Assembly: GCA_016210005.1 (NCBI GenBank)
Contig: JACQVA010000012.1
Location: 1-64,000 of the forward strand
Reading direction: 5' to 3'
DNA: 64,000 nucleotides
Source: Deltaproteobacteria bacterium
Lineage (GTDB): Bacteria > Desulfobacterota > Binatia > HRBIN30 > JACQVA1
A program made the translations under genes and the position numbers. Of the stretch, positions 30,524-48,910 are shown in pieces (positions within the stretch are counted from its first letter, which is position 1; the number at the start of each line of letters is the position of its first letter). The notes beneath the pieces were generated by a model. It saw only the letters and a list, made by a program, of their open reading frames with translations. It was not told the origin of the DNA and ran no database searches.

Positions 30524-30603
30524 GATCCGCAATGGGATATTCGACGGAACGTCACCCTATTTGTGAAGAGCGCTACCTAGATGCAGCAGCTGTCCGAGCT
30601 TCA

Positions 30604-31452
30604 ATGACGGTCTCAACCGCGGAGATAACTTACAGCCATCGCCCACGAACAGGCTTGGGCCTGTCGGCGTGGGCGGAAATGGGCCGCGAGCTGTGGGCCA
30701 GCCGGGAGCTGACCTGGCGGCTGTTCCAGCGCGACTTCTCCGCCCGCTACCGCCAAAGCGTGCTGGGATACCTGTGGGCGGTGGTGCCCGTGCTCGTCGC
30801 AGTTGCTACCTTCACTTGGCTCAACCGGGCCAAGGTGTTGCCGATCGCGGGAACGGTGCTGCCGTATCCGGTGTTCCTACTACTCGGCCTAACGGTGTGG
30901 CAGCTCTTCGCCAGTGGCCTGACCAGCGCAACGCAGAGTTTGGTCAACGCCGGTTCACTCATAGCCAAGATCAACTTCCCTCGCGAGACGTTGGTGTTGG
31001 CGGCCACCGGGCAGGCGCTCGTCGAGTTTCTCATCCGCGCCGCTTTGGTGGCGCTGGCGTTTGCGCTCTATCGGACTTGGCCGCCATGGACCATCGTTCT
31101 GGTTCCGTTCGCGGTTATCCCGCTGTGTCTGTTCACCATCGGGCTTGGTTACGTCTGCGCCCTGGGCAACGGAATTCTACGCGACACCGGGCAAACCATA
31201 ACGCTGGTCCTTACGTTCTGGATGTTTCTGACCCCGGTGGTGTATCCGCCGCCCAGCGGCGCCGGTGCGACATTGGTCAATGTGCTCAACCCCATAAGCC
31301 CATTTGTAATCGCCGCCCAGGATCTCGCCACGCACGGCTACCTCACGCAGCCCGGCGGCTACGCGAGCGCGTGTGCGGCCGCACTGGTCGTGTTTCTGCT
31401 GGGGTGGCGTGTGTTTCATCTGACCGAGCCGCGCATCGCGGAACGGGTGTGA
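30604..31452 (+). CDS. ABC-2 polysaccharide exporter permease (Wzm/TagG-like)
   Basis: The product has 282 residues from the ATG at 30604; an in-frame ATG at 30532 is possible. The cytoplasmic N-terminus ELTWRLFQRDFSARYRQSVLGYLW is the classic Wzm/RfbA/KpsM lead-in, followed by six membrane segments. It pairs with the ATP-binding protein encoded 21 bp downstream to move a completed glycan across the inner membrane. The upstream gap contains a dispersed palindrome, so there may be partial transcription termination before this gene. Confidence 0.92.
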   Translation: MTVSTAEITYSHRPRTGLGLSAWAEMGRELWASRELTWRLFQRDFSARYRQSVLGYLWAVVPVLVAVATFTWLNRAKVLPIAGTVLPYPVFLLLGLTVWQLFASGLTSATQSLVNAGSLIAKINFPRETLVLAATGQALVEFLIRAALVALAFALYRTWPPWTIVLVPFAVIPLCLFTIGLGYVCALGNGILRDTGQTITLVLTFWMFLTPVVYPPPSGAGATLVNVLNPISPFVIAAQDLATHGYLTQPGGYASACAAALVVFLLGWRVFHLTEPRIAERV

Positions 31453-31473: not shown

Positions 31474-32757
31474 ATGCCGCGAACAGTGGTCGCCCTCGAG
31501 CGGGTCTCGAAGAAGTTCTGCCGCAGCTTGAAGCACAGTATGGCTTACGCCGCCTGCGACGTCGCGCGCGACTTGCTCGGCCTGCCGAGTGCGAGCGCAA
31601 CGCTGCGCCCGGCGGAGTTCTGGTCGGTGAGCGACCTCTCCTTTGAACTGAAGCCGGGCGAGTCGCTCGGGATCATCGGCGCCAATGGAGCCGGTAAGAC
31701 GACCGTGCTCAGGATGATCAGCGGCATCATCCGGCCCGACAAGGGACAAGTTCGGGTCAACGGCCGCGTCGGGGCGTTAATCGACGTCGGCGTGGGTTTT
31801 CATCCGCTGCTGACCGGTCGCGAAAACATCTACGTCAACGGTGCCATCCTGGGGATGACGAAGCGCGAGATTGACGCCAAGTTCGACACTATCGTGGAGT
31901 TCTCCGGACTGGAGGCGAGCGTGCTCGAAGCCCCCGTGAAGACCTACAGTAGCGGGATGTACGTTCGCCTGGGCTTCGCGGTGGCCACGCATGCCGAGGC
32001 CGAGATCCTGCTGATTGACGAAGTTTTGGCCGTCGGCGACGCCAACTTCTACAGCAAGTGCTACCGCCGCCTGCACGCCCTGCAGCAGCAAGGCGTATCG
32101 ATCATTCTGGTCAGCCACAACAACGTGGCGCAGCAAGAGATCTGCGGGCGCGCTCTGCTGCTCGAAGCCGGCAGGCCGATTGCGCTTGGCCCGACGACCG
32201 AGGTGGTCAACCTCTACCGCTCACGCCTGGCGGCTGGGAACAACGGAGCGGGCGGGGTTGGGCCCAATCTCGTGGAGCAGCCGGAGGCCGTGCGTATAGG
32301 ACCTATTCGGCTCGTCGATGACACCGGCAGTGTTGTGGCCGAGCCTTACAGCGGCCAGCGCCTGGCACTCACGTTCAGTGTCGAGTGCGCGCAGCCGCTT
32401 GCTCAGCCGCACTATCAGGTCGGGTTCTACGCGAGCGAGGGCCCGCTGTTCACCTCCTTTGCCACAGACTGGGAGGGGATAGAGCCGCCTGCACTGCATG
32501 TGGGCAAGACGGAAGTGACGCTGAATATACGGGAGCTTTGCCTGCCGGTGGGCGGCTACGCCATCGTGGCCCTCGTCGGGGACGGTAGCACGGTTAAGCG
32601 CATCGCTTGCCGCGACAAGATCGAGCGCATCTTCGTTCGCCAACCGCCGCGCGTGCGTGGCGATCTTGCCATGCCCCATTCGTGGGAGTGGGATATCTCA
32701 GCAGACACCGCCGGCAAGATGCGCTTCGCTTGCGCGCCCGCGGCGCTCGTCCGCTAG
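31474..32757 (+). CDS. ABC polysaccharide exporter ATPase with Wzt C-domain
   Basis: The product has 427 residues from the ATG at 31474, with GGAG at the right spacing; a GTG at 31453 is a weaker alternative. The ATPase domain has Walker A GANGAGKTT, signature YSSGMYVRLGFAVA and Walker B ILLIDEVLAVGDANF. After residue 265 a beta-sandwich of about 150 residues matches the Wzt carbohydrate-binding domain position. In Wzt proteins, that domain recognises the terminal modification of the finished chain. The phosphonate genes directly downstream make a modified chain end an attractive ligand here. Confidence 0.93.
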   Translation: MPRTVVALERVSKKFCRSLKHSMAYAACDVARDLLGLPSASATLRPAEFWSVSDLSFELKPGESLGIIGANGAGKTTVLRMISGIIRPDKGQVRVNGRVGALIDVGVGFHPLLTGRENIYVNGAILGMTKREIDAKFDTIVEFSGLEASVLEAPVKTYSSGMYVRLGFAVATHAEAEILLIDEVLAVGDANFYSKCYRRLHALQQQGVSIILVSHNNVAQQEICGRALLLEAGRPIALGPTTEVVNLYRSRLAAGNNGAGGVGPNLVEQPEAVRIGPIRLVDDTGSVVAEPYSGQRLALTFSVECAQPLAQPHYQVGFYASEGPLFTSFATDWEGIEPPALHVGKTEVTLNIRELCLPVGGYAIVALVGDGSTVKRIACRDKIERIFVRQPPRVRGDLAMPHSWEWDISADTAGKMRFACAPAALVR

Positions 32758-32886: not shown

Positions 32887-34251
32887 ATGCTGTCGCGCAG
32901 CGAGCCACAAGAAATCACGCGGGGCTGTAGGCTGGGTCCGGCGACGCGGACTCACAAGACCGTCTACGTCGCCATGAGCGCAGACGTGGTGCATCCCGGC
33001 CACATGAACATCCTGAAGATCGCCCGAGCTTATGGCGAGGTGGTCGTTGGTCTGCTGACCGACGAGGCGATCGCCAGCTACAAGCGGCTGCCTTACATGA
33101 CCTACGAGCAGCGCAAATGCGTGGTCGAGAACATCCAAGGGGTAGCGCGGGTGATTCCGCAGACGCAGCTGGACTACGTGCCTAACCTCCTCGCGCTCAA
33201 ACCTGACTATGTCGTTCACGGCGATGATTGGAGAACGGGTGTGCAGGCATCGGTTCGGCAGCGGGTGCTCGAAACCCTGGCGCAGTGGGGCGGCCAGCTG
33301 GTCGAACCCAGTTACACCAAGGGGGTGTCGTCGACGAAGGTGATTCACGCGCTGCAAGAAATCGGGGTGACGCCCGATATCCGCCGCCGCAGGTTGCGAC
33401 GGCTGCTGACGGCCAAGCCGCTGGTCACGACCATCGAGGCCCACAACGGGCTAACCGGCTTGATCGCCGAACACGCCAGCGAGTCACGCGATGGCGTGCC
33501 GGTGGAGTTCGACGCCATCTGGCTCAGCAGCCTGACCGACTCGACCGCCAAGGGACGCCCGGACATCGAATACGTCGACCTCACCTCCAGAATGAGCACG
33601 CTCCAGGATATTCTTGAAGTCACCACTAAGCCGGTCATCTACGACGGCGATTCCGGCGGGCAGTCCGAGCACTTCGCGTTTGCGGTCAAGACCCTCGAAC
33701 GGCTGGGCGTGTCGGCGGTGATCATAGAAGACAAGGTCGGCCTCAAGCGTAACTCGATGTTTGGGACCGAAGCAGCGCAGGTGCAGGACACGATCGACAA
33801 CTTCTGCCACAAGATCCATGCCGGCAAGAAGGCGCAGGTGACGGACGACTTCATGGTGGTCGCGCGCATCGAGTCGTTGATCCTCGAGCAAGGGGTGGAT
33901 GACGCGCTGGAGCGGGCGCAGGCCTACGTCGCCGCCGGCGCCGACGGCATCATGATCCACAGCCGGGAGAAGTCGCCCGCGGAGATCTTCCAATTCGCTG
34001 CCGCCTATCGCCAGTTCAAGCTGCGGGCTCCGCTCGTGGTCGCGCCCACGATGTTCAACGCGGTCACCGAAGAAGAACTCAAGCAGCGCGGGGTGCAGAT
34101 CGTGATCTACGCCAACCACCTTCTGCGCAGCGCTTACCCGAGCATGCTGGCAACTGCGAAGACGATCCTCAGGCACGGCCGCTCGCTGGAGGCGGACGAG
34201 CGCATGATGCCGATCCAGGAGATCTTGACCCTCATCCCGGGAAGCATCTAG
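32887..34251 (+). CDS. aepX: PEP phosphomutase with N-terminal cytidylyltransferase domain
   Basis: This 454-residue fusion has a nucleotidyltransferase at residues 17-155, with HPGH at about 37-40 and KGVSSTK near 150. It is of the type that activates phosphonates or polyols with CTP. Residues 170-450 are PEP mutase: the YDGDSGG metal loop and the [11 protein letters not shown] catalytic motif of true phosphomutases (EDKxG) near residue 280. The mutase converts PEP to phosphonopyruvate, forming the C-P bond. GGGGAAGGG precedes the ATG. The next gene follows after 2 bp. The cytidylyl substrate is inferred to be the phosphonate end product of this operon. Confidence 0.93.
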
Positions 34252-34253
34252 CC

Positions 34254-35381
34254 ATGCTCGACTGTGCCGTGATCTTTCGCGCGTTCGCCGATGCCGCCGT
34301 AACGTTCTTCGCCGGAGTGCCCGACTCCGTACTCAAGCACCTGTGCGCGTACATCGCGGACCACGCGGATGCCGGGCGCCACATCATTGCTGCCAATGAA
34401 GGCGGCGCGATCGCCGTGGCCGCAGGACACTACCTGGCCACCGGCCAATGCGCCTGCGTTTACAGTCAGAACGCCGGGCAGGGCAACACGATTAACCCGC
34501 TCACCTCTCTGGCGGATCCGCAGGTGCACGGCATTCCGCTACTGCTGCTGCTGGGATGGCGTGGCGAACCAGAGCGGCATGATGAGCCCCAGCACCTCAA
34601 ACAGGGCAGGGTGACGATCCCGCTGCTGCAGACTCTCGAGATCCCATGGGACATCCTGCCCGAGGGCGAAGGAGCGGCGGCGGCTTGCCTGCAGCGAATC
34701 GTCAAGACGGCGATCGCGCGCAGCGGCCCGGCGGCCGTCGTTGTACGCGACGGTGCGTTTGCGCCCTATCAGCGCCGGCACAAGGAGGCCGACCGCTACG
34801 CGCTGTCACGTGAGGAGGCGCTGAAGTTGATCGTCGGCAGTGCTGGGCCGCACGATATCCTGGTTTCGAGCACCGGCAAGATGTCACGCGAGCTCTACGA
34901 ATACCGCGTGCAACGCGGGGAGAATCCCGGCCGAGATTTCCTTTGCGTCGGCGCGATGGGGCACGCCTCGCAAATCGCCTTGGGTATAGCCATGGCCAAG
35001 CCGCAGCGGCGCGTGCTCTGCCTCGACGGCGACGGGGCACTGCTCATGCACATGGGGTCACTGGCAGTAATTGGCCAGCAGGGGCCGGCAAACTTCGTGC
35101 ACGTTGTGCTCAACAACGGTGCCCACGAGTCGGTCGGCGGACAGCCCACGGCCGGCTTCAGCACCGACCTGCCTGGGGTAGCGAGAAGCTGCGGATACAG
35201 GATCGTCGCCAGTGCCGACAATGCCCCAAAACTCGTCGCAGCCCTGGAGCAATTGAAGTCAAGCGCCGGCCCGCAGCTCTTGGAAGTGCGAGTTGCATTG
35301 GGAGCGCGCGCCGACCTCGGCCGGCCGGCAACCAGCCCGCGGCAGAACAAGCAGCAGTTCATGGAATTTCTCCAGGCATGA
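34254..35381 (+). CDS. aepY: Phosphonopyruvate decarboxylase (TPP-dependent)
   Basis: The 375-residue enzyme has the split PYR/PP layout. The N-terminal part holds the catalytic Glu in IIAANEGGAIAVAAG, and the TPP-binding motif near residue 258 reads GDGALLMHMGSL...NNGAHESVGGQPT. It makes phosphonoacetaldehyde and pulls the unfavourable mutase step forward. It is encoded 2 bp after aepX, and its stop overlaps the next start (ATGA). The length and both motifs match characterised Ppd enzymes. Confidence 0.95.
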   Translation: MLDCAVIFRAFADAAVTFFAGVPDSVLKHLCAYIADHADAGRHIIAANEGGAIAVAAGHYLATGQCACVYSQNAGQGNTINPLTSLADPQVHGIPLLLLLGWRGEPERHDEPQHLKQGRVTIPLLQTLEIPWDILPEGEGAAAACLQRIVKTAIARSGPAAVVVRDGAFAPYQRRHKEADRYALSREEALKLIVGSAGPHDILVSSTGKMSRELYEYRVQRGENPGRDFLCVGAMGHASQIALGIAMAKPQRRVLCLDGDGALLMHMGSLAVIGQQGPANFVHVVLNNGAHESVGGQPTAGFSTDLPGVARSCGYRIVASADNAPKLVAALEQLKSSAGPQLLEVRVALGARADLGRPATSPRQNKQQFMEFLQA

Positions 35382-36514
35382 CCCAAGCGGTGCATCTCGG
35401 TACTGGTGCTGTTCTGCAGTTGCGGGCCACCCTGGAGCGGCTCAATGCCCGCTCCGTCTTTCTGGTCACCGGTAAGGCTTCGTTTGAGTTGTCTGGGGCA
35501 GCGGCCCAGGTGCACGGTCAGTTGAGCGAAATCGAGGTGTGGCAGTTCAACAATTTCTCTCGCAACCCCGAGGCCCCAGAGGTCGAGCGGGGCTTGGCCG
35601 AGTTCCACAGGCAGACGGCCGACGCCGTGGTGGCAGTCGGCGGCGGCAGCACCTTGGATGTGGCGAAGTTGATCGCGCTCGGCGCAGCTCAGGGGCAGCA
35701 GGCCGGCGCCATTTGGCGCCAGGGCCAAGCGCCGCGCCTTGACGCCGTCCCGGTCGTCGCGATCCCCACGACTGCCGGATCCGGCAGTGAGGCGACGCAC
35801 TTCGCGACGGTGTACGCCGGCGGGAAGAAGCGCTCGGTGGCCCATCCATCAATGTTGCCGGTTGCCGCACTGGTGGACCCGGCGCTGACGGCGAGCGCGA
35901 GCCCGAAGCTGACGGCCGTCACGGGACTGGATGCCTTCTCTCAGGCGGTGGAGTCGTTCTGGTCGGTTCATTCAACCGCCGAGTCGCGAGGCTACTCGCG
36001 CCAGGCCATTACCTTGGTGCAGCGCCACCTGCTGAGTTGTGTGCGCCGGCCGGCGCCCGAGCACCGCGCGGCCATGTGCCAGGCTGCGCACTTGGCCGGC
36101 AAGGCGATCAACATAACCAAGACGACCGCGCCGCACGCGCTCTCCTACGCTTTGACGTCGCGCTGGAACGTGCCGCACGGGCACGCCGCGGCTCTAACCC
36201 TGGGCGCGATGCTCGTCTTCAACAGCAAGGTAACGAAGGCCGATGTCGCCGATCCGCGCGGCGACGAGCACGTGCGCGCAACGATGGCCGAGCTGTTCGA
36301 GCTGCTGGGTTGCGACAGCGCTGAGGCTTGCCGGGAGAAGATCGCCACACTGATGCGGGATGTCGGGCTCGCCACCCGCCTCGGCGAAGTCGGCGTACGC
36401 ACGCCCGGGCAGCGCGGCTTCCTGGTGGAGCAAGTCAACCTCGAGCGCTTGCACAACAACCCGCGCGCGCTGGATCGCCGGCAGCTGCGGGAGGTCTTGG
36501 AGTCGGTTGCATGA
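35378..36514 (+). CDS. Iron-containing alcohol dehydrogenase, probable phosphonoacetaldehyde reductase
   Basis: The product has 378 residues from the ATG at 35378, overlapping the aepY stop by 4 nt. The cofactor loop is VAVGGGSTLDVAKLIA. Group III ADH metal ligands are visible: the Asp/His set in TGLDAFSQAVES and HGHAAALTLG. After PEP mutase and Ppd, this family (PhpC-like) reduces phosphonoacetaldehyde to 2-hydroxyethylphosphonate. No aminotransferase (PhnW/AEPT) is present, which argues against aminoethylphosphonate as the product. The substrate assignment rests on context. Confidence 0.87.
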   Translation: MTQAVHLGTGAVLQLRATLERLNARSVFLVTGKASFELSGAAAQVHGQLSEIEVWQFNNFSRNPEAPEVERGLAEFHRQTADAVVAVGGGSTLDVAKLIALGAAQGQQAGAIWRQGQAPRLDAVPVVAIPTTAGSGSEATHFATVYAGGKKRSVAHPSMLPVAALVDPALTASASPKLTAVTGLDAFSQAVESFWSVHSTAESRGYSRQAITLVQRHLLSCVRRPAPEHRAAMCQAAHLAGKAINITKTTAPHALSYALTSRWNVPHGHAAALTLGAMLVFNSKVTKADVADPRGDEHVRATMAELFELLGCDSAEACREKIATLMRDVGLATRLGEVGVRTPGQRGFLVEQVNLERLHNNPRALDRRQLREVLESVA

Positions 36515-37746
36515 TGCAGGTACCGGCCGGAGCATTACGGGCGGCAGATAAGTCGCCCGCGCCCACGGCGCGCGCCGCCAGCGTGGGCCACCTCGACTTT
36601 TATCACTACGACTCGATGGACGTGCTCAGCTACGAGCCGATTTGCAGGTACCTCGACAACGCCGCGCTGGTGGCGCCCGCCAGCGACGGTGTGTTGGACT
36701 TCGCGCGCGCCGAACTCTACTTCCGCCAGCGCGGTCTGACATTCCAAACCGAGCCCAGTGGCGATGCCGCGGCCGTTGTCGGAACCCAGTACTTCTGGAC
36801 CTTGGGGCGCCCGCAGTACAAGCGCGTGCCCGTGCTCAGGTTGATGTACAGCCTGTCGGAAAAGGGCGGTGCGGCTCACGGCAAGGAATGGAGCGACTGG
36901 TTCGACGCCGTGCTCTGCCCGGGCCCGTATTCGCAGCGGCTGCTGCAACGCTGGGGACGGCGCGCCATCATCGTGGGCTTCCCCAAATACGACGATTACT
37001 TCCGCGGCCGCTACCGCGCCGGGGCGGTGCGGGCCAAGTTCGGCCTCGACGCCAAGCGCAAGTGCGCCTTGTACTTGCCGACGTGGGCGCACCATTCGTC
37101 GGTCGACCGATTCGCTGCCGCCATCCGCGAGCTGGCGCACGGTGGCGAATACCAAGTGCTCTACAAGCCGCACACCGTGACCACTCGCCTGGAGCGCCAC
37201 CGCATCGAGTGCTTCCGCAGCGAGATCGAGGCCGGCCAGCTCGTTTGCATCGAAGAGCAGAGCAACATGGCCGAGTTGTTATTGGTGGCCGACGTCGTGC
37301 TGGCGGACGGGATGAGCGGCGCTTTTTGGGAAGCGGTCATCGTCTCCGACCGGCCGGTGCTGGCGCTGCACGTGCACGGGGAGTTCGAACGGGTGCTGAT
37401 GGACGCGCGCGTGGAGGACTTCGCCCCGGTGTGTGACGAGCCCGCCGCGCTGCGCAGGAGCATCGAGCGGGCTACGTGCGCGCACGTCATCCAGCCGTCG
37501 CCGCGCGTTCTGCTTGCTAACGAGTTACTCTCTTATCGCGATGGCAGCGCTGGCCAGCGCGCGGCGGAGGTGATCGCGGAGCTGGCGGCTGAGGAAGACA
37601 GCCGCTCCTGGGCCGTGCTCAGGCGGGAGGTGCGCTATCGGACATGGCGCGCGGTGCATGCAGCTCGTAGCGACCGCTCATTGCAGCGCCTGCGCCACCC
37701 CGTCCTCACGGTACGGAATGGCTTGCGGCGCTTGGTGCAAACATGA
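36511..37746 (+). CDS. CDP-glycerol glycerophosphotransferase-like (TagF/TagB family) transferase
   Basis: The 411-residue protein starts at the ATG overlapping the dehydrogenase stop. It has a GT-B-like fold signature of the teichoic acid family: ALYLPTWAHHSS, then LYKPHTVTT and the C-terminal ADVVLADGMSGAFWEAV, which corresponds to the TagF ADxxxxDxS site. TagF relatives move a phospho-alcohol from its CDP-activated form to a glycan or polymer. In this operon the likely donor is CMP-activated hydroxyethylphosphonate made by the AepX cytidylyl domain. There is no membrane segment. Confidence 0.8.
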   Translation: MMQVPAGALRAADKSPAPTARAASVGHLDFYHYDSMDVLSYEPICRYLDNAALVAPASDGVLDFARAELYFRQRGLTFQTEPSGDAAAVVGTQYFWTLGRPQYKRVPVLRLMYSLSEKGGAAHGKEWSDWFDAVLCPGPYSQRLLQRWGRRAIIVGFPKYDDYFRGRYRAGAVRAKFGLDAKRKCALYLPTWAHHSSVDRFAAAIRELAHGGEYQVLYKPHTVTTRLERHRIECFRSEIEAGQLVCIEEQSNMAELLLVADVVLADGMSGAFWEAVIVSDRPVLALHVHGEFERVLMDARVEDFAPVCDEPAALRRSIERATCAHVIQPSPRVLLANELLSYRDGSAGQRAAEVIAELAAEEDSRSWAVLRREVRYRTWRAVHAARSDRSLQRLRHPVLTVRNGLRRLVQT

Positions 37747-39431
37747 CCGGCGGACAGGGGCGGGAGCGAACAGTGCTCGGGAACGTGCAGGTGCCATTGC
37801 GGCAGTGGGGCAAGGCCGTTCTCGGACCGCGCGTGACCCACGCGCTGCGGCAATGGGAGGGCGACTTCCGGCGCGCCGTCCGGCGCCACCGTCTCGGCGA
37901 TCGCTCCTCGATGTCTTACGACCGGGCACTGGAATGGGCGAAGCGGCATTCCGGCTTGGGTGGCGGCATCAGTCAGACCAGCAGGCGCCGGGCGCCGTAT
38001 CCGGAGGTGACCGGCTACTTCATCCCCACCTTGCTCGACTTCGGCGAGCGGGCGCTGGCGCTGCGGCACGCGCGCTGGCTGGCGGCTCAGGCTCGCAGTG
38101 ACGGCGCCATCCTCGGTCCCGATGGCTGCCCGTACACCTTCGACACCGCTCAGGCATTGCGCGGATTTCTCGCCGCTTGCCCGGACGACCCGTCGCTGCA
38201 GTCCGCTACCATCGCCGCGGCCGACTTTGTCGCCAGCCGGATCGGCGGCGACGGCACTATCGACCCATGTACGCGTGACACCTACCTGTGGAGTAACGGC
38301 CACGGTCTACCGCCGGGATACCTCTTGTATGCCTTGCCGCCGCTGCTCGAAGCCAGCCGCGTGTTCGGTCGCGCCGACTGGGGTCGTGCGGTCGAGCGGG
38401 TGCTGGCGGCGGTACGTCATGATCCGGTGGTGTTGGATGCCGGGCAGCTGTCGCACTTCTATGCCTACGCTCTCGATGCCCTGATCGACCTCGGCGAGGC
38501 CGAGCGCGTGCGGCGGGCGGTGACGCGACTGTTCGAGTCGATGCGGCCGGACGGTTCACTACCGGCCTATCCTGGGGTCTCGTGGACGTGCTCGCCGGGG
38601 AGCATTCAGTTCGCCGTTATCGCTTACAAATTGGGCATGTGGCAGTCCGCGGAGCAGCTCTATCGCTGGGCCGAACGGGTGCAGGAAGCCGGCGGCGGCT
38701 TCCTCGGCAGTTACGGCAGCGGTGCCGAGTACTCCGGTGATGAAGAAGTCAGCTGGGCGGTGAAGTATTTCTTGGATGCGACCCTGTGGCGGGTGAAGAC
38801 GAGCTTCAACGCGGAAACCGCGCTCCATCCGGAGGTGGTGGAACCGAGCGACCCGCGCTTGGTGATCCTACTCGCCCGTCTGGGGGAGGTCGGCAGTAGC
38901 CGCGTGCTTGATCTCGGATGCGGCAAAGGCCGCTTCGGCAAGCAGCTACTGTTCCAGCATCCCGGCTGCGCCCTCACCGGGGTCGATGCGTCGGAGGAAA
39001 TGCTGCGCGGCGTTGCCGGGGCCTTTCCGGCACAGCGCGCTTCCATCCTGCGGCTGCCTTTCGAGCCTGACTCATTCCATGCCGCGTATGCGGTGGAGAG
39101 CTTCGAGCACGTGCTGAACCTAGAGGGAGCGTTCCGTGAGGTCCACCGCTGCCTCAAGCCCGGTGGCCGGCTGGTGGTCATCGACAAGAACGTGAGCAGT
39201 TTGGGCATTCTCGATCTCGCCCCCTGGGAGAAGTGGTTCGATCCCGCGCGGCTGCTGGAGATGGCCGAGTGCGCCGGCTTCGCGACGGTCGAGGCCAAGA
39301 ATTTCGAACTTGCGCCGGGTAACGATTCACCGACCTTCTTCGCCGCGTCGTTCGAGAAGCGCGCAGCGGCGCGGAACGGCCAAGACGCCACCGGCCCCGG
39401 GCCGCGCGCGGGACTGCTTGCGCAGCAGTAG
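37743..39431 (+). CDS. Alpha/alpha-toroid domain fused to SAM methyltransferase
   Basis: The product has 562 residues and its ATG overlaps the previous stop by 4 nt. Residues about 50-345 form a helical-repeat region with paired motifs (YTFDTAQALRGFLA, SNGHGLPPGYLLYALPPLLEAS, FYAYALDALIDLGE, GSIQFAVIAYKLGMWQSAE). It resembles alpha/alpha-barrel glycosidases or lyases, though I cannot name the family. Residues 385-545 are a class I methyltransferase (VLDLGCGKGRFGKQL, FHAAYAVESFEHVLN). Coupling to the phosphonate genes suggests it acts on the same glycan or its terminus. Confidence 0.75.
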   Translation: MTGGQGRERTVLGNVQVPLRQWGKAVLGPRVTHALRQWEGDFRRAVRRHRLGDRSSMSYDRALEWAKRHSGLGGGISQTSRRRAPYPEVTGYFIPTLLDFGERALALRHARWLAAQARSDGAILGPDGCPYTFDTAQALRGFLAACPDDPSLQSATIAAADFVASRIGGDGTIDPCTRDTYLWSNGHGLPPGYLLYALPPLLEASRVFGRADWGRAVERVLAAVRHDPVVLDAGQLSHFYAYALDALIDLGEAERVRRAVTRLFESMRPDGSLPAYPGVSWTCSPGSIQFAVIAYKLGMWQSAEQLYRWAERVQEAGGGFLGSYGSGAEYSGDEEVSWAVKYFLDATLWRVKTSFNAETALHPEVVEPSDPRLVILLARLGEVGSSRVLDLGCGKGRFGKQLLFQHPGCALTGVDASEEMLRGVAGAFPAQRASILRLPFEPDSFHAAYAVESFEHVLNLEGAFREVHRCLKPGGRLVVIDKNVSSLGILDLAPWEKWFDPARLLEMAECAGFATVEAKNFELAPGNDSPTFFAASFEKRAAARNGQDATGPGPRAGLLAQQ

Positions 39432-39438
39432 TGATGAT

Positions 39439-40590
39439 ATGAAGCTGCTGGTCATACCGCACGCCTATTCGTCGCACTTGGTCGTGCGCGAGATCGAGTT
39501 GGCGCGCTGCTGGGCGCGCTCGCACGAGGTGTACGTGGCGCGTCCTCCGGTCTTGAACGGGGCCCGCGGCCTGCTCGACAAACTGCGCTTCCACGCCGGT
39601 GCGCTGTGGACGAACATCGAGCCGTGGCCCGGCGGCTGGCACTGGCTCACCATGCCCGGATACTATCATCTGCCGGCGCTGCAGGGCGGAGTAACCAGCT
39701 GGGCAATTCGGTCGGTGCTCAAGCGTTTCCACTTCGATGCGGTCATCAACGCCTCCTATCTGGGGGACGCCGCGACGCCGGGATGCCTGGGCGCGGAAAT
39801 ACCGCCGGGAGGCTATCGCTACCTCTACGACCTGGTCGATGATCACGCCGGTGGCTGTCAGCTCTATGGCCACCCCGAAGAGGCGGAGCGCACCGACGAT
39901 GTCATCCGCCGAGAGATCGCTAAGGCGGATCATGTGATCGCTGTTACCCCGTACCTGCGGGAGGTGTGTCGCGGCCGATACGGGAAGGACGCCACCGTGA
40001 TCCCGAATGGCTTCCAGCCCCCGCCGATGCCCGTAGATGAGGCGAGGACGGCGCGCCTGCGGGCGGAACTTGGCCTGCACCCCGGTCGGGTCATCGGCTA
40101 CATCGGCAGCCTCGACGGCTGGGTCGACGTGGATTTCATGGTGCGCGTGCTGCACCAGCTCCGTGAGCGCGACGGCACAGCGCAGCTGTTGATCGTGGGT
40201 GGGGGAGAGCGGCTGAGCGCGCTGCGCGCCCGCTACGCACGCGTGCCCGGTCTGATCTTCAGCGGCTGGGTGCCGCGCGAGCGTGTCGAGCACTACTTCC
40301 GCCTGATCGACCTCGGGCTGATCCCCTTTGCCGAAAACGCCCTCACCCACGCAGCGCTGCCGATCAAGGCGCTCGAGTACGGTGCCTACGGCAAGCCCGT
40401 CCTCGCATCCGCGCTCAGCGGCCTGCGCCAGCTCAACCTCTCTTGGGTGACGTGCAAGTCGATGGCCGTCAACGACTGGTGCCGCGAGATCAACGAGCGG
40501 CTAAGCCGGCGAAGCTCACCGCCGACACACAAGGAGTTGGCGGCGTACCGCTGGGACGCTCTCGCCAAGGCCATCGAGCGGCTGTTCTAA
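39439..40590 (+). CDS. Glycosyltransferase (GT-B, family 1/4-like)
   Basis: The product has 383 residues from the ATG at 39439, 7 bp after the toroid-methyltransferase gene. A longer frame from 39310 runs into that gene. The donor half shows VIGYIGSLDGWVDVDFMV, LLIVGGGERLS, and LIPFAENALTHAALPIKALEYGAYGKPVLAS, a GT4-like nucleotide-sugar site. It is a cytoplasmic enzyme that adds one sugar to the growing glycan. Neither donor nor acceptor can be read from sequence. Confidence 0.85.
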   Translation: MKLLVIPHAYSSHLVVREIELARCWARSHEVYVARPPVLNGARGLLDKLRFHAGALWTNIEPWPGGWHWLTMPGYYHLPALQGGVTSWAIRSVLKRFHFDAVINASYLGDAATPGCLGAEIPPGGYRYLYDLVDDHAGGCQLYGHPEEAERTDDVIRREIAKADHVIAVTPYLREVCRGRYGKDATVIPNGFQPPPMPVDEARTARLRAELGLHPGRVIGYIGSLDGWVDVDFMVRVLHQLRERDGTAQLLIVGGGERLSALRARYARVPGLIFSGWVPRERVEHYFRLIDLGLIPFAENALTHAALPIKALEYGAYGKPVLASALSGLRQLNLSWVTCKSMAVNDWCREINERLSRRSSPPTHKELAAYRWDALAKAIERLF

Positions 40591-40769: not shown

Positions 40770-41615
40770 ATGTCCTGCTTCCAACAGCTCGCGCTACAAG
40801 CAGACATCTATGACCGCAAGGAAGCGGCGGGCCAACTCCTGAGCCCGCAGCTGGCGCCGCGCCTGGGTCGTTTTCCGGATCTGCTGCTCACCTACCGTGA
40901 ACATGCTCGTCAGGCGCGCAAGATGAAGCTGCAGCCAGGGGCGCGGGTGCTGGAGCTCGGATGTTCGACCGGCACTTTCCTGCGCAGCCTGCAGCGCGAG
41001 TACGGCGTCGAAGCGCACGGCGTGGATGTCTCGCAGCGCAGCGTGAGTCATGCCCGGCGGTTGTGTCCTTCCGGTTACTGGTATCGCGCCAGCGCCACGG
41101 CGCTGCCGTTTCACGATCGCTCTTTCGACGCGGTGCTCGCGTTCGACGTGCTCGAGCACGTGGGTGATTATGCCTCGGTGCTACGGGCGCTGGCGCGCTT
41201 ACTCCGCCCCGGCGGGCGAGTGCTGCTGCACGTGCCGGTGGCTGACATCGCCGGCAGCTGCGATGCCTTGTGGCAGCGCTATCGCAGCGAACGCTACCAG
41301 GCCGAACAGATCGAGGCGGGGCACTTCTCCGAGAACCTCGCCTCCAAGTCCGAACTGCTCGCTGCCTGCGCCGGGGCCGGGCTGCAGGTGGAAGGCGCCC
41401 GGCGCTTCAACGTCATGTTCCAGAATCTGTTCGATTATCGCAGCCGGCACCGGGTGCTCGGCCGGCTCTTCAACGGCTGGCGGCTGCCGTTCGCGCTTTA
41501 TCACAGCCTGGTGGCACCGGTGGTCGAGCTGTTCACCGTCGTCCCGGACCGCGCGCTGGCGGGAGCGCTGGACATCGGCGCGTCGCTCTACGTGCACGCG
41601 CGGCGCTGCGGCTGA
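40770..41615 (+). CDS. Class I SAM-dependent methyltransferase
   Basis: This 281-residue protein carries motif I VLELGCSTGTFLRSL near residue 60, the acidic post-I strand AHGVDVS, and the Methyltransf_11 block FDAVLAFDVLEHVGD. The C-terminal part is hydrophobic and may lie on the membrane. It probably O-methylates a sugar or a glycan intermediate. It is preceded by about 180 bp of non-coding DNA containing palindrome copy B and followed by a glycosyltransferase 50 bp on. Confidence 0.87.
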   Translation: MSCFQQLALQADIYDRKEAAGQLLSPQLAPRLGRFPDLLLTYREHARQARKMKLQPGARVLELGCSTGTFLRSLQREYGVEAHGVDVSQRSVSHARRLCPSGYWYRASATALPFHDRSFDAVLAFDVLEHVGDYASVLRALARLLRPGGRVLLHVPVADIAGSCDALWQRYRSERYQAEQIEAGHFSENLASKSELLAACAGAGLQVEGARRFNVMFQNLFDYRSRHRVLGRLFNGWRLPFALYHSLVAPVVELFTVVPDRALAGALDIGASLYVHARRCG

Positions 41616-46489: not shown

Positions 46490-47598
46490 ATAGTGCGTTC
46501 TGGACCGATCGTCCAACCCTGGTCACCGGCGCAACCGGCTTGCTCGGCAGCTGGTTGGTCCGCCGGCTGCTCGCGGCCGGGGCTCAGGTGGTCTGTGTCA
46601 TTCGCGATTGGGTGCCGCAATCCGAGCTGGTGCGCAGCAATTTCCTCGACAGCGCGACGGTCGTGCGCGGCGACGTCTGCGACCAGGTCCTTCTCGAACG
46701 GGCGTTGGGTGAATACGAGATCGACACCGTCTTTCACCTCGCGGCACAAACCATTGTCACGATCGCGAACCGCAACCCCGTCTCCACCTTTGCCAGCAAC
46801 ATTCAGGGGACCTGGGCACTCCTGGAGGCGTGCCGGCGCAGTGCCACTGTCGGGCGCGTGGTTGTAGCCTCGTCGGACAAGGCATACGGCGACAGCAAGG
46901 AGCTGCCGTACACTGAGGACGCCCCACTGCAGGGCCGGCACCCGTACGATGTGAGCAAGTCGTGCGCGGATTTGATCGCCCAAAGCTACGCCGTGACCTA
47001 TCGCCTCCCGGTCGTGATCACGCGCTGTGGCAATCTATATGGAGGCGGCGACCTCAACTGGAACCGCATCGTTCCGGGCACGATTCGCTCGCTCCTGCGC
47101 GGCGAGCGGCCGGTCATCCGCTCAGACGGTAAACAGGTGCGGGACTATTTCTACGTGGAGGATGCAACGGCGGCGTACATGCTGCTGGCGGAGCGGTTCG
47201 CCACCAGCCCAGATCTGGCCGGCTTGGCGTTCAATTTCTCCAACGAGCTGCAGCTCACGGTGCTGGAGCTGGTGCAGCGGATCCAATCATCGCTGGCCTC
47301 CGGTCTCGAACCGCTGATTCGCAACCAGGCCAGCAACGAGATCCCCCGCCAGTATCTCAGCGCGGCCAGGGCCCGTGAGCTGCTCGGATGGACGCCGCTG
47401 TTCACCCTCGATCAGGGCCTGGATGCCACCATCGACTGGTATCGACGATTCTTCGGCGACACGGGGCAGCAGCAGGCGCCGGCGGCACAACCGGCACGGA
47501 CACTGCGCAGCAGCGCCCACCAACGGTCATTCGCAGGCGCCGATTCGCGGAGCGCGTCCGCTCGGCATGAGCGCAATCCCGATGCTCGAGACAACTGA
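46486..47598 (+). CDS. rfbG: CDP-glucose 4,6-dehydratase-like SDR
   Basis: The product has 370 residues and its ATG overlaps the rfbF stop. The NAD loop is [12 protein letters not shown]. Catalytic Ser/Asp-Lys region ASSDKAYGD and YDVSK match the 4,6-dehydratase clade, and HRGNLYGG-like [12 protein letters not shown] follows. It should convert CDP-glucose to CDP-4-keto-6-deoxyglucose. The last 40 residues are a low-complexity Ala/Arg/Ser tail, and the final 32 bp overlap the next gene. No RfbH (3-dehydrase) is present, so 3,6-dideoxysugars are not expected. Confidence 0.92.
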
Positions 47599-48910
47599 AG
47601 TCACCTGGTGCGAGGTCTGCGGCGGCGCCGGCCTGATCTCGGTGTTGGATCTCGGTAGCCATCCCCTGTGCGACGATCTGGTTCGGGTCGGCGACGCACG
47701 CCTCTGCCGGGAGTACCCCATCGAGATACTCTTTTGCGAGCGCTGCGCCACCGCGCATCAGCGCTTCCAGGTGCCTAATCGCGAGCTGTTCCGGAAGTCG
47801 TATCACTACCGATCGCGTTTTACCGCGGACGTGCTGCGAGGAATGGAGGCGCTGGTGGAGTCCTGCGAACGGCAGCTCGGGCCGCTGAACGGCAAGCTCG
47901 TGCTGGACATCGGTTGTAACGACAGCAGCCTGCTGGATGTCTTTGCGCGCAAAGGATGCCGGACAATCGGCATCGAGCCGACCGGCGCCTGTGCCGACGG
48001 GCTCAATCGCGGTCACCAGCTTTACAACGCGTTCTTCACCGAGGAGTCGGCTGAGGTCATTCTCCGAGATCATGGCTGTCCTGATATTATTACGTTCACA
48101 AACGTCTTTGCTCATATCGAGAACTTGCCCGGCGTTATTCGCGCGTTGAAGATGCTGATGTCTGCCAAGACCGTTCTTGTCATCGAGAACCACTATCTCG
48201 GAGCCATTCTCGATCGTAGCCAGTTTGACACCTTCTACCACGAGCATCCCCGGACCTACAGCGTGTGCTCATTCTTGCACATCGCCAGGAGCTTGGAGAG
48301 CGGCGTGGGCGCAGTAGAGTTCCCGTCCCGCTACGGTGGCAACATCCGAGTCTTCATGGGGCAACGATTTCCGGACCGGATCGGCCCCGCAGTGGCCGCG
48401 GCGCTGGCGAACGAGGCGTCGTTCGTCCAGCGCTTTGCTGACCTGCGGGCGAACGCGTCGAGCTGGAGGACCATCGCCGGCCGGCGCCTGGTGTATCTGG
48501 TCGCTAAGCACGGGCCGCTTTCCGCGAAGGCGTTTCCCGGCCGGGCGGCGATTCTTGTCAAGATGCTGGCGCTAGACGAGGCTTCGATCGCCGTCGTCTA
48601 TGAGAAGCCCGGATCGATGAAGATCGGGCATTATCTGCCGGGTACGAGGATACCTATTCGATCAGATGAGGAGTTGTTTGCGCTCGCAACCAAGCCGCCG
48701 ATCATCCTCAATCTGGCATGGCACATCTCAGGCGAGATCAGGCAGTATCTGAGCGAGCACCGGTATCGGGGAGAGGTCGTCGACATCTTGGATCCCAGCG
48801 ATCTTCCCATCGACCCGGCTTCGAGACGGCCGCCGCGCACCCCGCTGGATCTGAGCGGGGTTGATGAGCGCTCTGACTTGGCAAGTCCACCGTCTCTCAG
48901 CAGGAGGTAG
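47567..48910 (+). CDS. Sugar C-methyltransferase (NovU/TylC3/EvaC type)
   Basis: The product has 447 residues from the ATG at 47567; an ATG at 47582 is also possible. The N-terminal zinc site is CEVCGG and CERCAT. The central SAM domain has [15 protein letters not shown]. The C-terminal C-methyltransferase domain includes YHEHPRTYS, equivalent to the catalytic YHEH of this family, and a second Rossmann region. Members methylate carbon 3 or 5 of 4-keto sugars. With RfbF/RfbG upstream, the expected substrate is CDP-4-keto-6-deoxyglucose, giving a branched sugar. Confidence 0.9.

Follow-up and report, generated by a model that had tools for sequence, protein, structure and literature searches.

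Polysaccharide ending or marking before export by ATP-binding cassette (ABC) transporters is known for few terminators. WbdD of Escherichia coli O9a is described as phosphorylating and methylating the chain end through a kinase and a methyltransferase (MTase) (PMC3482155), and ORF6 of Klebsiella pneumoniae O7 as an MTase-kinase with glycosyltransferase modules, again with phosphorylation and methylation of the chain end; according to the authors of the O7 study, Wzt has a module that binds the completed chain end (PMC11231755). Phosphonoglycan (Pnt) pathways are known with a phosphoenolpyruvate (PEP) mutase fused to a cytidylyltransferase, as in Fom1 (PMC6697681). MmpH (PDB 7qsj), the methylmannose polysaccharide hydrolase of M. 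hassiacum, is reported to use Glu262 as base and Asp47/Asp50 as acids (PMC9883506). Here, we analysed a 64,000-nucleotide stretch of contig JACQVA010000012.1 from Deltaproteobacteria bacterium (assembly GCA_016210005.1; hereafter the window) and focused on a gene at positions 37743-39431, which encodes a barrel domain fused to an S-adenosylmethionine (SAM)-dependent MTase.

The gene encodes a genuine protein of two domains, belonging to a barrel family for which the window sequence hit no Pfam entry. Relatives of the barrel-MTase pair occur in phages and in surface-sugar gene clusters of bacteria not related to one another, which makes it probable that the protein finishes or decorates sugar chains. 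We see about even chances that the fusion protein is a cytosolic surface-glycan tailoring enzyme, probably terminating or capping the chains. This reading rests on the modelled fold, the fusion itself, the conserved pocket rim, the recurrent pairing of barrel and MTase, the glycan-cluster context and the recurrent neighbours.

Like WbdD and O7 ORF6, the protein has a SAM MTase and belongs to a polysaccharide assembly system that depends on an ABC transporter and includes a glycan-binding Wzt; 7 of 13 relatives also have a gene for a kinase-like protein close to the fusion gene. It differs from them in having a barrel instead of a kinase domain (none was found by Pfam and NCBIfam scans), which sets it apart from the WbdD type with kinase and MTase in one protein, a type also marked by a coiled-coil ruler and by methylation of a phosphate at the non-reducing end. 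With Pnt pathways, the window has in common a PEP mutase fusion, a decarboxylase and a TagF-like transferase directly upstream of the fusion, but the barrel-MTase gene was not found in five other PEP mutase loci examined. MmpH is likewise an (alpha/alpha)6 barrel of similar length, acts on a substrate described as an O-methylated polysaccharide, and has its first two barrel helices linked by a loop with acidic residues, the loop on which Glu88 of the window protein also lies; the two proteins are however 15 % identical, the comparison stands at the level of structural range, and the description of MmpH consulted mentions no MTase domain. GH15, GH88 and cellobiose 2-epimerase barrels resemble the window barrel in fold (Z 24-29), but the latter has no sequence-family match.

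Barrel fold, methyltransferase domain and conserved pocket

Residues ~377-503 of the fusion protein matched Methyltransf_11 of Pfam (E 7.8e-19; score 68.6 bits, cut-off 21.2 bits), and this half contains the motifs VLDLGCGKGR (glycine-rich motif I), ESFEH and IDKN. With a score above the cut-off and motif I, the protein classifies as a class I SAM-dependent MTase. As the two-domain architecture is common to homologues of 34-42 % identity, 37743-39431 is not a chance open reading frame.

The 315-residue barrel stretch matched no Pfam family at E<=1, the GH15, GH88, GH127, pectate lyase and C5-epimerase families included. An AlphaFold2 model, based on residues 41-355 of the fusion protein and seven phage relatives (two of them near-copies), predicted an all-helical barrel (predicted local distance difference test, pLDDT, 83.1; predicted template modelling score, pTM, 0.85). 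With this model, Foldseek retrieved 167 PDB matches at E<=0.001, the first of which was MmpH (E 2.9e-9). A second aligner gave 7qsj a Z score of 28.7 (3.2 A over 301 residues), tied with dextran dextrinase (9ju0, Z 28.6). Next came a glycosidase (26.9) and GH88 (26.6), with cellobiose 2-epimerases and type II terpene cyclases at ~25, and glucoamylases were also listed. The pTM of 0.85 and the Z of 28.7 to 7qsj place the modelled window barrel in the (alpha/alpha)6 barrel superfamily, in which six alternating helix hairpins close into a barrel. A preliminary description of this DNA had proposed a paired-helix domain resembling alpha/alpha-barrel carbohydrate enzymes, followed by a complete SAM methyltransferase; the Pfam score bears out the second part, and model and fold searches agree with the first and uphold the relation to carbohydrate enzymes, the fold being shared also with type II terpene cyclases. 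On the evidence of the model, the fold by itself does not discriminate glycan from terpene chemistry, and 7qsj was absent from three profile searches of solved-structure sequences with the barrel.

A terpene-cyclase-like domain acting on the polyprenyl carrier lipid, and not on the sugar, has to be weighed. Squalene-hopene cyclases were the best PDB sequence-profile matches of the barrel (E 1.8e-14), their C-terminal Pfam model was matched at E<=1 by 13 of 14 barrel members, type II cyclases reach Z 25, and NCBI applies a 'prenyltransferase/squalene oxidase repeat' label within the family. DxDD is the catalytic motif of type II terpene cyclases. It is missing from 67 of 70 barrels, the window's among them, and present in 3; glycosyltransferase clusters surround the barrels where checked, and we read the shared signal as mostly the common helical repeat. 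The lack of DxDD in the window barrel and the glycan gene context disfavour a terpene cyclase, which we regard as very unlikely.

Conservation of the pocket was assessed in an alignment of 26 barrels (10 fused, 9 stand-alone and 7 phage), numbered according to the window protein. The invariant or near-invariant polar or aromatic residues included Tyr86, Glu88, Tyr92, Tyr196, His238, Tyr242, Cys283, Gln289, Trp338 and Lys341. On the rim, Glu88 (25/26) and Lys341 are near-invariant, and Tyr86, Tyr92, His238, Tyr242, Cys283, Gln289 and Trp338 are invariant. Position 134 is Asp in fused and phage barrels and Asn in 7 of the 9 stand-alone ones. The rim thus combines many Tyr, His, Cys and Lys with a single near-invariant carboxylate and Asp/Asn 134, so that a classical two-carboxylate hydrolase is not obvious. 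Half of the conserved positions (23/46) lie near the N-terminal ends of six helices taken as inner, a region of 90 positions (hypergeometric p 0.0007), whereas 4 lie near the remaining six helices; inner and outer helices were assigned from their alternating order and not from coordinates. In this alignment, the conserved positions resemble a catalytic or binding site at one barrel mouth.

Such an enzyme-like invariant set, which would suit Tyr/His acid-base chemistry, leads to another explanation: the barrel may be an active glycan enzyme (hydrolase, lyase or epimerase) that trims, edits or epimerises, the MTase carrying out a second, barrel-independent tailoring step on a shared acceptor. 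It is favoured by partial matches of some relatives to pectate lyase (4/14), GH127 (4/14), GH88 (3/14) and C5-epimerase (3/14) models, by the haloarchaeal barrels beside sulfatase genes and by the barrels without a detected MTase nearby (39/70; both below), and MmpH itself is reported to hydrolyse a methylated polysaccharide (PMC9883506). Yet the window barrel has no Pfam match, and where MmpH is described as needing its Glu262 base together with Asp47/Asp50 (PMC9883506), the barrels offer a single near-invariant Glu together with Asp134, which most stand-alone members replace with Asn. We consider this explanation rather improbable, although the most serious of the alternatives.

Relatives and recurrent pairing of barrel and methyltransferase

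Genes in the genomes of relatives were read as longest open frames, and flank lengths vary where contigs end. The barrel was found in 8 of 395 phylum genomes with one query sequence and at most five candidates scored per genome, a search less sensitive than that of the class (12/148). Frequencies in four other phylum samples were 1/145, 31/299, 1/249 and 7/188. Fused relatives were present in nine other genomes of the same phylum and once in each of three further phylum samples (L215, L216 and L217). When the window barrel was searched against plasmids and phages, no match appeared. A genome-contig scan with the full fusion protein gave MTase relatives; tblastn with 14 barrels detected no barrel in those 80 loci, nor was any found in nine genomes reached via MTase loci.

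MTases were called in 70 barrel loci using a home-made profile (E<=1e-4), the training set of which included some fused and phage MTases. For the window, L215, L216, L217, the six phage contigs, L113, L115 and nine MTases of the third clade described below, Pfam independently supports the call; the calls for L103-L111 rest on alignment and motifs, and L111, which has an inserted stretch in its second half, showed neither motif I nor E..EH. Eighteen barrels are fused to an MTase (13 C-terminal, 5 N-terminal), and 13 further ones, 6 of them from phages, have a same-strand MTase gene within 800 bases. No MTase was detected within 3 kb of the remaining 39. This number is an upper bound, as several contigs stop close to the barrel and an annotated MTase of L159, located 5 kb from its barrel, escaped the profile. 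Many barrels must thus work without an adjacent MTase. Two relatives have a more complex architecture, i.e. a 1072-residue protein in which two MTase domains flank the barrel and the inserted stretch precedes the second of them (L111:8161-11376), and a 772-residue protein uniting three glycan-related modules in the order GT2 domain, barrel, MTase (L217:8512-10827).

A phylogenetic tree was built from 67 barrels. The divergent or weak L149, L150 and L223 were left out, 'none' labels for the MTase include contigs cut near the barrel, and a mixed full-length alignment, which misplaced the phage barrels, was not used. All 13 C-terminal fusions, drawn from four phylum samples, fell in one clade (99/97). 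The six phage barrels formed another (100/98), joined to the former (100/100). In a third, separate clade of ten rows (100/99), an MTase was upstream or N-terminally fused in nine, all nine above the Pfam cut-off, and the remaining row was cut off by a contig end. Barrel and MTase therefore stand together in three gene orders and in two or more separate regions of the tree.

The phage barrels, retrieved from IMG/VR, lie on six contigs that are distinct when near-copies are set apart (L116, L117, L119, L124, L128 and L154; L118, L120-L123 and further copies were counted together with L119). In all six, the gene directly upstream of the barrel is an MTase over the Pfam cut-off (L120 being scanned as the L119 copy), and at least one glycosyltransferase passes its Pfam cut-off on each contig. 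This concerned seven of nine further cassette genes tested, the other two (L120 and L117) matching nothing in Pfam; in L128, one more cassette gene was without match and one had only a sub-threshold GT2 match. According to PHROGs, a major head protein is encoded upstream and a head-tail adaptor and tape measure downstream in L120. Pfam identified a major head protein upstream in L116, and L117 and L128 have a similar head-protein layout by eye only. The natural reading is that these cassettes would serve virion glycosylation. PHROGs gave no match for three phage barrels tried, viral scans with fused and stand-alone barrel alignments found no relative, and two phage barrels had no match in the phage collection. 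L154 (1953-3040) has a phage glycan cassette in which the barrel is followed by a gene that we take to resemble DUF115/MptE-like proteins and a TagD-like nucleotidyltransferase.

Both haloarchaeal stand-alone barrels (L159 and L160, on plasmids) adjoin sulfatase and glycosyltransferase genes, and L159 also an alginate-lyase-family gene. NCBI labels them 'prenyltransferase/squalene oxidase repeat-containing protein', an annotation that is probably misleading.

Since the pairing recurs with the barrel on either side of the MTase, and since the K. pneumoniae O7 terminator is described as having an extra carbohydrate-binding domain beside its MTase-kinase (PMC11231755), the barrel could also lack catalytic activity and serve only to bind the glycan, holding the acceptor in place for the MTase. 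However, the polar residues that bacteria, haloarchaea and phages share without change exceed the usual conservation of binding surfaces, and for many barrels no MTase that they could assist was detected. We give this proposal little credence.

Gene neighbourhood and the phosphonate branch

The features of the window that surround the fusion gene are listed in Table 1.

Table 1. The fusion gene, its domains and the neighbouring genes in the window
Feature	Position	Strand	Remarks
Wzm-like ABC-2 permease	30532..31452	+	PF01061
Wzt-like ABC ATPase with C-terminal domain	31474..32757	+	PF14524, 32.3 bits, just over cut-off 30.4
Cytidylyltransferase-PEP mutase fusion (AepX/Fom1-like)	32974..34251	+	TIGR02320 above cut-off
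Phosphonopyruvate decarboxylase	34254..35381	+	TIGR03297 above cut-off
Iron-containing alcohol dehydrogenase	35378..36514	+	Best NCBIfam match: phosphonate enzyme PsrA, 183.9 bits, below cut-off 423.7
TagF-like transferase	36511..37746	+	PF04464, 43.5 bits, cut-off 22.1; 4-base overlap with fusion gene
Barrel-MTase fusion gene	37743..39431	+	Open for 562 amino acids, ATG start
Predicted N-terminal (alpha/alpha)6 barrel, ~residues 55-352	37905..38798	+	Motifs YPEVTGY, FDTAQ, SHFYAY, WTC..G..Q, SWAVK
Class I SAM-dependent MTase domain, ~residues 363-524	38829..39314	+	
Glycosyltransferase	39439..40590	+	Starts 7 bases 3' of fusion gene
Separate SAM methyltransferase gene	40770..41615	+	

The genes for AepX, decarboxylase, dehydrogenase, TagF-like transferase and fusion protein run head to tail, with successive gaps of +2, -4, -4 and -4 bases, the start of the last overlapping the stop of the TagF-like gene (36511-37746). 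The preliminary description had placed the gene correctly, had noted this overlap and had assumed a surface-glycan context, which our results support. Farther downstream, a sugar C-methyltransferase-like gene (47480-48910; PF08421 and PF08484 above cut-off) suggests that the polysaccharide of the window may carry a branched deoxysugar.

Neighbours were compared over 62 bacterial and archaeal barrel loci, i.e. 13 C-terminal fusions and 49 others, L149 and L150 being left out. An APH-like kinase protein was encoded near 7/13 fusions and 0/49 other barrels (Fisher p 3.5e-6), a TagF-like protein near 4/13, the window included, and 0/49 (p 0.0013), Wzt near 5/13 and 1/49 (p 0.0011), and PEP mutase near 1/13 and 0/49 (p 0.21); these p-values overstate independence because the kinase-like hits represent ~3 lineages and not 7 (L103-L106 and L107-L108 are close relatives). 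A kinase-like or TagF-like gene occurred in 10 of the 13 fused loci. The order Wzm, Wzt, pyruvyltransferase, kinase-like protein, barrel-MTase is common to L107, L108 and L215, the last from another phylum sample, and by eye a GT2-like gene comes next in all three.

The kinase-like neighbour passes the APH cut-off and looks like a terminator-polymerase of the WbdD or O7-ORF6 type. It is conserved (L107:10131-11627, L215:10055-11527, L103:11165-15817 and L105:11328-15815); its N-terminus resembles APH/protein kinases, and it also gives a sub-threshold MTase match. L103 and L105 encode it within a protein of ~1500 residues, in which three GT2 stretches were found for L105. Also in L105 (3602-7279), a TagF-like gene is followed in a row by ATP-sulfurylase and pyruvate kinase genes, an odd set beside a glycan cluster.

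As for the phosphonate genes, PEP mutase was found near 1 of the 62 loci, that of the window, and among 14 barrel-positive genomes TIGR02320 was over the cut-off in one, again the window's own; the regular association with PEP mutase expected of Pnt-type phosphonate tailoring is thus lacking. Among 394 other genomes of the phylum, the barrel was present in 7 (single-sequence query) and PEP mutase (E<=1e-70) in 14, with none in common among those listed; about 0.25 shared genomes would be expected by chance, so that zero overlap is weak on its own, and that both scans drew on the same genomes was judged from the listed handles. Four other clusters with a cytidylyltransferase-PEP mutase fusion (L176-L179) comprised the decarboxylase (4/4), the dehydrogenase (3/4) and, in L177, a TagF-like gene; no barrel occurred in the 13-20 kb read, nor in L180, which has a PEP mutase without cytidylyltransferase fusion. 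Phosphonate coupling as a general rule of the barrel family was rejected on these counts (1/62 loci, 1/14 genomes and 0/5 other mutase loci with a barrel). The coupling claimed in the preliminary description accordingly holds for the window, where TIGR02320 and TIGR03297 identify phosphonate genes in an operon-like run directly upstream; it is not a family property, and the co-occurrence with aepX across genomes foreseen there did not appear within the sampled loci.

A phosphonate-specific cap, in which the TagF-like enzyme would add 2-hydroxyethylphosphonate activated by cytidine monophosphate and the fusion protein would methylate it, is consistent with the tight run from AepX to the fusion gene and with TagF-like genes being confined to fused loci (4/13 against 0/49). 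The TagF-like protein of L216 is moreover akin to that of the window (E 6e-38; PF04464 21.6 bits, just under the cut-off of 22.1), and its gene adjoins a nucleotidyltransferase gene. Against it stand the single locus and single genome with PEP mutase and the four other AepX clusters without barrel. We judge it unlikely; such a cap would be at most a local use of a more general enzyme.

A putative glycan-finishing enzyme

If the fusion protein tailors surface glycans, a growing polysaccharide or its end would enter the cavity at the barrel mouth, and the barrel would bind the chain or make a small change there. The fused SAM methyltransferase might then O-methylate a sugar or an attached phosph(on)ate, presumably at the chain end, before the modified chain would be exported by the Wzm/Wzt transporter. 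Several observations weigh against this proposal: more than half of the barrels have no detected MTase nearby; Wzm/Wzt genes lie near only 5 of 13 fused genes; the kinase-like neighbours reduce to ~3 lineages, and the MTase half of these proteins stays below Pfam cut-offs; and the full-length single-sequence model of the fusion was unusable (pLDDT 39.1; pTM 0.30), giving no geometry between the two active sites.

No paper on the barrel family was found in the literature, which is not proof of absence, and none was found that joins the squalene-oxidase-repeat name with exopolysaccharide and glycosyltransferase; VpsJ may be a relative. We tentatively suggest, as a possibility less likely than not, that barrel and MTase form a chain-terminating or tailoring module for which we found no earlier description, existing in at least three arrangements, acting on bacterial surface polysaccharides and phage virion glycans and, in the window, wired to a phosphonate-adding branch. 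If true, the barrel-MTase family, with its kinase-like, TagF-like and Wzt partners and its phage cassettes, would represent a testable new class of glycan-finishing enzymes, and proteins now labelled 'squalene oxidase repeat' would gain a function.

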